From Myxococcales bacterium (GTDB lineage Bacteria > Myxococcota_A > Polyangia > Polyangiales > Polyangiaceae): 64,000 nt of DNA. The position numbers were made by a program, and so were the translations under genes. Location: positions 1 to 64,000 of the forward strand of contig CAHJWM010000015.1 of the NCBI GenBank assembly GCA_903642325.1, written 5' to 3'. The notes beneath the pieces are model-generated. The model made no database searches. It was not told the DNA's origin and saw only the letters and a program-made list of their open reading frames with translations. This document shows, one piece after another, positions 42,201-51,945 of the stretch. The number at the start of each line of letters is the position of its first letter. The first letter of the stretch is position 1.

Positions 42201-45200
42201 TCACTCTCGCTCGAACGAGAACGTCTGAAACTTCAAAGTCTTCGCGTTCTCTGAGACCGTCCGCACTACGTCGTCCTTCACGCCGTCGGGAACAGAGACC
42301 CGAAATTCGAGCGTGACTTGCACCTCGGCGCTGGGCAGCACGGAGAGGTGCTCCAGAACTTCCATCACGACGCGCCCCGTCTCTTTGACCACACGTTCGC
42401 CATCGACCTTGACCGACCCGATGAACACATTCGGCGGCAGTTTCGGGCCGACTGCAATTGCGCTACCTTCGTTGGGGGCGGGCGCGTCGACTTTTCCCAT
42501 CTCGCCACTGCCGTGCCGCCCAGGCGGCCAAGAAGCTCCCTTCTCACGTTCACGCTGCGCCCGAGCAACCTCGGTCTTAACAATGAGCGTTGATCGGTCG
42601 ATGACTGCCAGCTGCCCTTCGCCGACGCGCAGACCGCTGTAGCGCTTCTTGGCGTCGTCATAAGCTGCGGCGACGGCAAAGGTGTCCTCGGCAGTCAACA
42701 CCGAGGCGCCGTCTTGGACGGCACCTTCAAGTGCGCCGCGGTTCGTCACGCGTGGTAGATACATATAGCGTGCGAACCACTCGCCGAGCTGAGTGACGTT
42801 GACGTGATCGCGCTCGGTCCACAGGTACTTGTCCAAGATCGATCGAAGTTCAACGCCGGGCAGCTTGGTGCGAAGGACCCACTCGGTGGTGAAGCGGACG
42901 CTCGCTCTCTCCCCAAGGGAACCTTCTCCGCTGACCTTGAACTCCTCCCACTCGATCTCGGAGGCGGGATCGCTCTGCCGAGGCGCCAGACCCCAGATGT
43001 AAGTTCCCTGAAGGCGTACATCGACCGTGCTGTCGAACTCCTTCACCTTGCCGAGCGCTTGAGTTTCCTGGAACTTGTCTAGATTGAGGGGAGTAGACTC
43101 CCGCTCGATCGACTTCCAGGCGAGGTAGTGGGCGACGGCGTTGAGAAGCGCGTCGAGGTCCTTCATGTCTGGCGCGAGGAACAGCAGGCAATTGCGCTCC
43201 AGGCGAGGACCAGTACCTCTGCCCTCAAGGATCGCCTTTGCCGCCGCGATGGCGGCGCTGTCCTTCATCCCCTTCTTGTGGGGCTGCTTCGGTGGAAGCA
43301 CGACGAGGCGCGCCGTGGGCTCGTCCGCCACGTCTCCATTAACCTCGGGGCAGGCGTGGACGGCGGCGAAGTCGCCACGCTTCTTCGCATCCTTCTGGAT
43401 TCGCGCGACGACCTCGGCGTACAGGGTTTCCAGGTCGCGAAGGTGTGTGCTGGCTCGGTCTTCGGCCAACCGATTTAGGTTGGCCTTGGTGGAGACCCAG
43501 TAGCGGTTCTGGTCCTGGTGAATGTACTTGGCACGGTCGCCGATCCGTCGGAGCGCATCGCCAAACGTCGCAATGGGTTCGCCCGGCTGCACGCAGCCCA
43601 AGCGCACGCGGCGATCGTCGATGCCGGGGTTCTTGTGGTCGGCGCCGGGGGCGGTGCCCATGTAAAGCGTTCGCGCGACACGGCGGCAAGCAGACAACTT
43701 GCCGAGGTTGGGTGAGCTTCGATCGAGCTCTAGCGGCAAGGAATGCTCACCATCGATATCCTGGGAGATGATCGGCTCCCAAACATCGGGGAGATAGCGC
43801 GTAAGTTCGGATCGGACCGCACCATCGAACATGGGGACGCTCGACGGCAGGATCATGAGGCTCGCGTCCTGACTCTCCCACAGGCGATGCACCACCTTGG
43901 CGAGCAGACGCAGAACGCCGCGCGTTCGCTGGAACTTATCGAGGGTAGACCAGTCGTCGTACAGGCGCCGAAACAGCTCGGGATGGATTGGGTAAGCGTT
44001 GGTCAGCTCCCGCTCGTACGCCTTCTCCCCGCAGCCCATCGGAAAGTCGTCCGCCCCGTCCTTGTACATCTTAGCGAAGGCCCGAACGACCGCCTCTCGT
44101 GCGACCTCCGCGTCCTTTCCCTCGACCGGTTCGAACAAACGACGGCGAACGATCTCGAATCCTTCGTCGGCACTGGCAGGACGCCACGGCTTCCCGACGC
44201 GCGTGAAAACGTTCTTCAACGTGTCGAGCGCGAGCTCGCCGTTTTCTCCGCCAATCTCGATCTTTGATGCGGGAATCGATGCAACGACCAGCGTCTTCTC
44301 CGCTGCCTTCGCAGCTTCGGTGAGGGCCTGGGCGAAAGAGGTCTGTGACTCGAAGTCCCCCGAGGGAAGATCGCGCTTGCCGACCACCTGCCGAGCGTAG
44401 GCGACCCACTCGTCGATGAGAATGACGACCGGACCGTATTTGCGGAACAGATCGACGAAGACCTGGGACCCTGGACTGGTCCCCTTCGCATCAGAATCGG
44501 CCACAAACTGGTAAGCCTCCTTGCCCTTGCCACCCGCAGCGTCGCCCAGTTGCCACGCCAGCTCGCCCCACAGCGTTCGAATGACTACACCATCAGGCTT
44601 CTTCGTCTCTTCGCCTGGCGAGAGCGCCGTTCCGACGAGGACCACGCGTCTCGCCTTCGGCGGCACCTTGATGTTCGCGGTGGCCAGCAGCTGGTCCACC
44701 CCAGGAAGCTTGCCTTTGCTCTCTCCAAAAAGGTGGAAGAGCGCGAGCATCGAGTGCGTCTTGCCGCCGCCGAAGTTGGTCTGCAACTCGATGACAGGAT
44801 CCCCCCCGGTGCCGGCGATTCTCTGAAGAGCACCCACCAAGAGATCCGTGAGCCCCGCCGTCAGGTATGTGCGGCGAAAGAACTCCACGGGATCGCGGTA
44901 CTCGTCGCTGCCATCGCCGCGGTAGACCTGCGCGAGATCGGCAGCGAACTCCGCCTGCATGTAGCGACCAGAGGCGACATCCTTGTGTGGTGTCATGACC
45001 TCGCGCCAAGGCTTCAGTCCCGCCTTGGTCGCCATGTCGATGGCGAGGGGGTTCTTGGCGTCGACGTTCTTCGTCTCGGCGAGCTGAGCCTGTGACAGTT
45101 CGCGTTTCAGCTTGCCGCATTCCTCCGCCTGCGCCCTGGCGTGAGCTGCCTCCAAGAGTCTTTGCGCCGTGTCGATCGCTCTGTAGGCATCATCGTTGGA

Positions 45201-51400: not shown

Positions 51401-51945
51401 GTCAGCAGCTCGAACTCCAGACCGAACTTCTCCCCAAGCTCGTCCTGCCATTGCTCGGTGATGCTACCGGGGGAGATGATCAGGCACCGTTCGAGGTCGC
51501 CTCGGATCATCAGCTCTTTGATCAGGAGGCCCGCCATGATCGTCTTGCCGGCGCCAGGATCGTCGGCGAGAAGGAAACGCATCGGTTGCCGCGGGAGCAT
51601 CTCCTCGTACACAGCACTGATCTGGTGCGGGAGAGGAATGATGGTCGAGGAAGTAATCGCGACGTAAGGATCGAAAAGCCAGGCGAGTTGGATGCGGCGA
51701 GCCTCAGAGACGAGACGGAACAAGCCGCCGTCCGCGTCGAACGACCATGGGCGATCGGACTCCACAAGTTCGAGCGAGGGCTCGTCCTCTCGGGCGAGGA
51801 TTCGGCTGTGGAGCACACCCCTGGAATCCGCAAAGATGACCTCGACCGCGTTCACCCCGTGAAACTCGGCAGACTTCACCGTGGCGATCCCTTCAATGGA
51901 AAGACCCCGCACTCGCGCCCCCTTCGTCAGCTCCTCAAGCCTCAT
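48427..51945 (-). CDS. Hma-type SNF2-like DEAH helicase with DUF3883-like end
   Basis: A 1172-aa SF2 helicase, first gene of the operon. Walker A is DDPGAGKTIMAG (about 128-139), DEAH at about 230-233 (VVCDEAHRMS), then MTATPHNG, a second RecA domain with FTEFKDTL and VANDAAGEGVNLQ..QRFGRIHRIGQ. The C-terminal part (EASHLYFVEVKGR...) has the DUF3883-like ExK nuclease-type motif. The ATG at 51945 is chosen since AGGA sits upstream of it; ATG 51960 is possible. It likely moves along DNA to find unmethylated invader DNA. Upstream (51961-52194) is a repeat-containing control region. Confidence 0.88.
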   Translation of the reverse strand: MRLEELTKGARVRGLSIEGIATVKSAEFHGVNAVEVIFADSRGVLHSRILAREDEPSLELVESDRPWSFDADGGLFRLVSEARRIQLAWLFDPYVAITSSTIIPLPHQISAVYEEMLPRQPMRFLLADDPGAGKTIMAGLLIKELMIRGDLERCLIISPGSITEQWQDELGEKFGLEFELLTRDMMTAARTSNPFEHKNLLIARLDQLSRNEDVQERFKAAPEWDLVVCDEAHRMSGHVFGDEIKYTKRYLLGQVVGAHTRNLLLMTATPHNGSEEDFQIFLALLDGDRFVGRFREGEHRADPSDMMRRLVKEDLRRFDGSKLFPERVSYTPQYDLSTEEAHLYAEVTEYVRSEMNRAERFADKEATRKVNVGFALMTLQRRLASSPQAIYRSIQRRRERLEARLREERLVLRGNGDAAELGADTGPRLDAEDWDELYDEATQEERENVEENVVDHATAARTVAELAQEIERLKELEGVAKAVRHAAPDCDAKWLQLAEILDDPLMTDDNGSQRKLIVFTEFKDTLLYLASRIRTRLGKPEAVEEIHGAVTREKRKAVVDRFMNDPTLLVLVANDAAGEGVNLQRAHLMVNYDLPWNPNRLEQRFGRIHRIGQTEVCHLWNLVAKDTREGEVYHRLLEKLDAEKLALGGKVFDVLGNLFDQKPLRELLMEAIRYGSDPARKADLLRQTDNAVERNHILAVLERQALVQNEMDVSRVLAIREDMERAHAKRLQPHFVQSFFQEAFTRLGGTMHRREEGRFELTHVPTAVRDRDRAVGTGTPVQPRYERVTFDKTYVDQQPRAHLISPGSPVLEATISCTLDHHIDVLKRGAILIDDSDEGTVCRLLFTLEHVVRDGRKGRQGTFNVVSQRLEFVEVGPDLAFRNAGAAPYLDYRGASEAERKALEPEVQSVWLKADWNALVTTFAIENLVPRHIDEVRRSRLPLVAKVEAEVKARLMKEVRFWDARAEELRVKERAGKKTKLPAQVAEERANRLGNRLKSRMIQLQAERTLFPEPPLLKGGALIVPRGLLQKLGVQSAGLPVETDADRALTERLAMEAVLASERAMGREPSDRSAERGLGYDIESRDPEASHLYFVEVKGRLAHADSVTLTRNEILCALNAPDRFRLAIVLIEEGVPRPPVYVTNFDFGQPGFGQTGATYALQQLLDHGGPPR

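Follow-up and report, generated by a model that had tools for sequence, protein, structure and literature searches.

Hma was named in PADLOC (Payne 2021, PMC8565338), without a functional test, as a set of three genes for a helicase, a methylase and an ATPase, with 1,638 instances in 26 phyla. The domain combination had been described before. Anantharaman 2013 (PMC3710099) reported a Swt1-type HEPN domain fused to a DUF499 ATPase, in an operon with a SNF2-DUF3883 helicase and restriction-modification components, with Ava_2192 as the prototype, and this description was confined to domain architecture and gene neighbourhood. Rakesh and Krishnan 2026 (PMC12839542) renamed Hma type-1 BREX-related, placed Hma-type systems within BREX and proposed the mechanism that we adopt below. 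Their core is the same three genes, encoding HEPN-DUF499, SNF2 with an active C-terminal nuclease, and a DUF1156 N6-methyltransferase; they counted 2446 taxa, 1370 with HEPN and 79% with the helicase-nuclease fusion. The sole experiment that PMC12839542 is seen to cite for this class is that of Liu 2024 on a Halomonas Snf2-nuclease, which is another protein. Hma is very common, with little experimental work.

We analysed a stretch of 64,000 nucleotides from a Myxococcales bacterium, referred to here as the window. On its minus strand, three long co-directional open reading frames form one operon (Table 1), and the gene order A-B-C in a single direction is the usual one among relatives. The first-pass annotation had called this a helicase-methylase-ATPase operon of the Hma type, and the PADLOC-DB models for Hma match all three proteins: HmaA with 1514.6 bits (residues 6-1172 of 1177), HmaB with 1125.2 bits (residues 5-940 of 977) and HmaC with 1004.5 bits (residues 162-1097 of 1099). 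Each match covers about the whole model with a score far beyond chance, and the assignment to HmaA, HmaB and HmaC is unambiguous. The two 4-base overlaps that had been noted between the genes are both ATGA; the hmaB start codon lies on the hmaA stop, and the hmaC start codon on the hmaB stop. HmaB was listed from a TTG at 48601, and it is the ATG at 48430 that gives the overlap. The longest frame of HmaA opens at 51960, but the ATG at 51945, already taken as the start, is preceded by AGGA and looks the better one. All three frames are intact, without frameshifts, and all catalytic motifs are present. Alignments with 11-14 relatives, drawn from plasmids, IMG/VR contigs and other genomes within the phylum, show little or no variation in the motifs of the motor, nuclease, methylase and ATPase. 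Chance or mis-called frames are ruled out by the HMM scores and the conserved motifs. Judged from its sequence, the locus is a complete, apparently intact Hma (type-1 BREX-related) operon of the HEPN-fused subgroup.

Table 1. Features of the Hma operon and its surroundings, in window positions.
Feature	Position	Strand	Description
Left att	35734..35758		25-bp copy of the ssrA 3' end, GTGGAGGCGCCGGGAATTGAACCCG; repeat search
DUF433 / DUF5615 (PIN-like) toxin-antitoxin pair	35920..36530	-	DUF433 frame as listed reaches 36890
90-bp subterminal repeat, left copy	36565..36654		83% identical to right copy
QatABCD operon	36885..41947	+	PADLOC models; convergent with Hma
hmaC	42201..45500	-	Swt1-like HEPN fused to DUF499 BrxC-like AAA+ ATPase (FGGGKTH, ILIDEW)
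HEPN_Swt1 domain of HmaC	45147..45476	-	Residues 9-118; Pfam 98.6 bits
hmaB	45497..48430	-	Predicted DUF1156 amino-methyltransferase; motif I DPFAGGGT at residue 145, motif IV DPPYYD at residue 555
hmaA	48427..51945	-	Putative N-terminal Tudor-like barrel, RapA-like SNF2 motor (DDPGAGKT, DEAH), C-terminal NOV_C (DUF3883) PD-(D/E)XK nuclease
NOV_C/DUF3883 nuclease domain of HmaA	48547..48795	-	Pfam NOV_C 70.8 bits
21-bp tandem repeat	52070..52126		2.7 copies, between hmaA and divergent HTH gene; possible operator
XRE-type HTH protein	52195..52449	+	84 aa, basic AT-hook-like N-terminus; weak HTH_3 match, 20.4 bits, below cut-off
Tyrosine recombinase (phage integrase family)	52446..53912	+	Just inside right att
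90-bp subterminal repeat, right copy	53947..54036		Inside right end
Right att	54150..54174		Identical 25-bp repeat just outside integrase; repeat search

Pfam searches agreed with the domains that had been proposed from the translations, namely a SNF2-like helicase with a DUF3883-like end, a DUF1156 methylase and a DUF499 ATPase. HmaA matches SNF2-rel_dom, Helicase_C and NOV_C (PF13020, as DUF3883 was later named), HmaB matches DUF1156 with 99.6 bits, and HmaC matches DUF499 with 92.5 bits. The motor of HmaA is RapA-like both by sequence and by fold search. Its GAGKT and DEAH motifs are invariant in aligned relatives, as are D1081, E1096 and K1098 of NOV_C (numbered from the 51945 start). Type-1 BREX-related helicases have an N-terminal Tudor domain and an inactive internal REase. 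Because the predicted model of HmaA is weak (pTM 0.35 overall, with an N-terminal four-strand barrel at pLDDT about 80), only the assignment of the motor is reliable from structure. In HmaB, DPF (residues 145-147) and DPPY (residues 555-558) are invariant in aligned relatives. PMC8565338 calls HmaB an m5C enzyme, but the protein here has DPPY and its sequence is without a PCQ motif, so that this naming is not supported; HmaB is expected to be an amino-methyltransferase, predicted to make m6A or m4C.

Beyond the first-pass annotation are the N-terminal HEPN RNase domain of HmaC, the BrxC-like core of the same protein and the presence of Qat and Hma on one att-bounded island. The HEPN motif of HmaC, RNKHAH, is intact (residues 91-96; 45230-45213). 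The PADLOC model of HmaC is without the HEPN part, and its match here begins at residue 162. Walker A, GGGKT (residues 244-248, with K247 and T248), and Walker B, D363 and E364, are invariant in aligned relatives. No solved relatives of HmaB or HmaC were found by sequence. In the predicted model of HmaC (pLDDT 83.6, pTM 0.56), the helical N-terminal domain fits HEPN, and the core finds its best PDB match in BrxC from the BREX complex of Acinetobacter (Foldseek E 6.7e-06). Over residues 164-670, superposition on BrxC gives VIA-align Z 17.2 (9zll) and 16.3 (9zdx), the former over 435 residues with an rmsd of 4.2, whereas ORC/Cdc6 proteins reach only Z about 12, clearly under BrxC. Sequence identity to BrxC is 11%. 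The core fold of the modelled HmaC is thus BrxC-like, although HmaC adds the N-terminal HEPN domain and a different C-terminal part. An RRM/ferredoxin-like domain, a C-terminal feature of type-1 BREX-related ATPases, was sought in the last 100 residues, which are modelled at a pLDDT of only 33-82 and are without fold match. A phage origin of HmaC was also considered and rejected, since the protein has no match among 50,697 phage records; 37 loci on putatively viral IMG/VR contigs surfaced only in a looser profile search.

That HMM searches would not place the operon in a different known system was likewise borne out. The NCBIfam models DrmD, RapA, DpdE, PLD-type anti-phage helicase, and DUF1156 and DUF499 anti-phage proteins all score far below their cut-offs. 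HmaA matches the helicases of DISARM, Dpd, Zorya and BREX mainly via the motor, and below the cut-off where NCBIfam has one. DISARM was rejected because DrmD matches HmaA with 359 bits against a cut-off of 610 bits and no DrmA, DrmB or DrmC partner was found among the genes scanned. The type-2-like models of NCBIfam are also far from their cut-offs (163 vs 1100, 115 vs 1000 and 150 vs 1200 bits). These sub-cut-off matches argue against DISARM and the type-2 BREX-related subgroup. PglZ, BrxB or another Brx partner gene was not recognised among the neighbouring genes scanned, and the locus was not assigned to type-3 BREX-related or BREX, which have PglZ in the locus. Type-2 BREX-related systems are marked by an HKD/PLD nuclease at the N-terminus of the helicase and by a DUF3780 gene, and there was no DUF3780 gene among the genes scanned. 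Compared with the prototype of PMC3710099, the domain combination is identical; compared with Hma of PADLOC, the same three genes are present and all models are matched full length; and compared with the type-1 BREX-related systems of PMC12839542, there is no substantive difference, the locus being an added member on an ssrA-derived island with Qat. The Hma operon here is a good specimen of an already described kind, and nothing in it departs from the published description. As a compact copy with intact active sites in the motor, nuclease, methylase, ATPase and HEPN domain, it is a clean test object.

In the mechanism that we adopt, HmaB would mark self DNA by methylating adenines at a specific site. 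HmaC, the BrxC-like ATPase, and HmaA, the SNF2 translocase, would form an inspection complex on DNA, and unmarked DNA would trigger the C-terminal NOV_C PD-(D/E)XK nuclease of HmaA to cut. If NOV_C cutting fails, the HEPN domain of HmaC may act as a back-up RNase that halts growth of the infected cell. A complete Hma operon, carried together with QatABCD on an ssrA-derived island and acting by marking, inspection, NOV_C cutting and HEPN back-up, is with high confidence our reading of the locus, in which what we infer is each of the activities, the sequence of steps and a suicide role for HEPN. The BrxC-like core of HmaC, and the grouping of these systems within BREX in PMC12839542, would also fit an exclusion of the BREX kind, in which HmaB marks self and the complex keeps unmarked DNA from replicating or entering without cutting it, NOV_C being accessory. 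However, type-1 systems are without PglZ and BrxB, and almost every relative seen with a complete HmaA C-terminus has an intact PD-(D/E)XK nuclease fused to its motor; PMC12839542 gives 79% of taxa. We regard exclusion without cutting as unlikely, while giving it some weight.

In relatives of the operon, the Hma genes are often interspersed with others: Fic, HicAB, XisH/XisI, OLD-like AAA_21 proteins and a relative of the YhcG/DUF1016 nuclease. The Fic insert is found in locus L063 and also on plasmid pVV8. Toxin-like inserts (XisH/XisI, Uma2, Fic, HicAB) were observed between Hma genes in L044, L046 and L063, which are plasmid and genome relatives. In two relatives, L064 (4928-12964, G010:C82) and L054 (579-8639, G208:C23), a type III-B CRISPR module lies between HmaB and HmaC. 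The module is collinear, with several 4-base overlaps, and consists of RAMP, Cmr2/Cas10, Cmr3, RAMP, RAMP and a Csm6-like CARF-HEPN protein. The same CARF protein stands just before HmaC in L053 (5807-7330, G003:C40), and in L115 (8322-16462, G101:C12) the module directly follows HmaC. Of 318 genomes of the class, six have this module clade, and in four of these it lies within or next to Hma. In genome G114, which is without HmaC, the module adjoins an ordinary CRISPR array of 45 repeats; no array was found in the examined stretches of L064, L054, L053 and L115. The text of PMC12839542 makes no mention of Cmr or Cas10.

The HEPN domain is present in 37 of 74 sampled HmaC-like proteins and is absent from the others, and therefore it is not needed for core function. 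Its RNxxxH-type motif is intact in all 34 HEPN-bearing HmaC proteins without the module, that of the window included, as against one of three with it (Fisher P 0.0045, n=37), a count whose rows are phylogenetically non-independent and include near-duplicates. The HEPN fold is kept but the motif is lost (WNKWNQ, YSRWAE) in HmaC of L054 (8654-11998) and L053 (2457-6092), both of which adjoin a Csm6-bearing module. Because of kinship, near-duplicates and a possible single loss shared by L053 and L054, the loss of the HEPN motif with Csm6 is a lead only. It makes the proposed back-up RNase role directly testable. The same pattern, an intact motif wherever the module is missing and loss in two of three cases where a Csm6 HEPN RNase shares the operon, would agree with HEPN as the main effector: HmaC sensing unmarked DNA would activate RNA cleavage and abortive infection, and NOV_C would only make the trigger. 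This is improbable, given that the core works without HEPN in half of the HmaC-like proteins. A related idea is that the HmaC HEPN is a working RNase effector exchangeable with the Csm6 of type III CRISPR, so that, where Cmr-Csm6 was built into Hma, the HmaC HEPN decayed in some relatives and the RNA-cleaving output was shared or swapped; we hold it to be speculative and rather doubtful.

The Hma operon lies on an 18.4-kb integrative island. Two perfect 25-bp direct repeats, of which shuffled sequence yields none, are found 18.4 kb apart and equal the 3' end of ssrA; the intact gene lies on another contig (C39) of the same genome. Between them are, in order, the DUF433/DUF5615 pair, QatABCD, Hma, the HTH gene and the integrase, and the HTH gene runs 4 bases into the integrase gene. 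The Qat operon adjoining Hma had been named in the first-pass annotation, and PADLOC models recover all of its four genes. It is these perfect ssrA-end repeats around Qat, Hma, the toxin-antitoxin pair and the integrase that delimit the island. Its G+C is 61-62% over most of its length, lower than to the right (63-69%) and just to the left (63-65%), and the search found no HmaC in the three other genomes of the genus that it covered. From the att-bounded island with its integrase, the lower G+C and the absence of HmaC in these three genomes, Qat and Hma most likely were acquired in one event. On this island, two multigene defence systems travel as a single integrase-borne unit. That Hma is a decayed or purely selfish remnant, kept for island stability with no action on phage, might be read from its place beside a toxin-antitoxin pair within an integrative element and from the lack of HmaC in the three other genomes of the genus searched, but with three intact frames, all catalytic motifs and no frameshifts this is very improbable.

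No intact tRNA or tmRNA was found in the window. Since both att repeats there lack an adjoining intact ssrA, the island may belong to a tandem array of such units at ssrA, or be an insertion at a secondary site. In an empty-site comparison with sister genomes, flank similarity was patchy, and the intact ssrA is on a different contig. On that contig (L088, 947-3450, G000:C39), a second att copy lies 0.8 kb downstream of the intact ssrA, with a zeta-toxin-like kinase enclosed between the two and a further integrase after it. In this genome, ssrA looks like a hotspot. A gene for a YhcG/DUF1016 PD-(D/E)XK nuclease (PADLOC candidate PDC-S02) lies at 33512-35242 of the window, immediately beyond the left att, with a partial second DUF1016_N frame beside it. 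Furthermore, a SNF2 helicase with DUF3670 is encoded at 60971-63991 of the window, and the ZorD and DpdE models match it in the motor half only.
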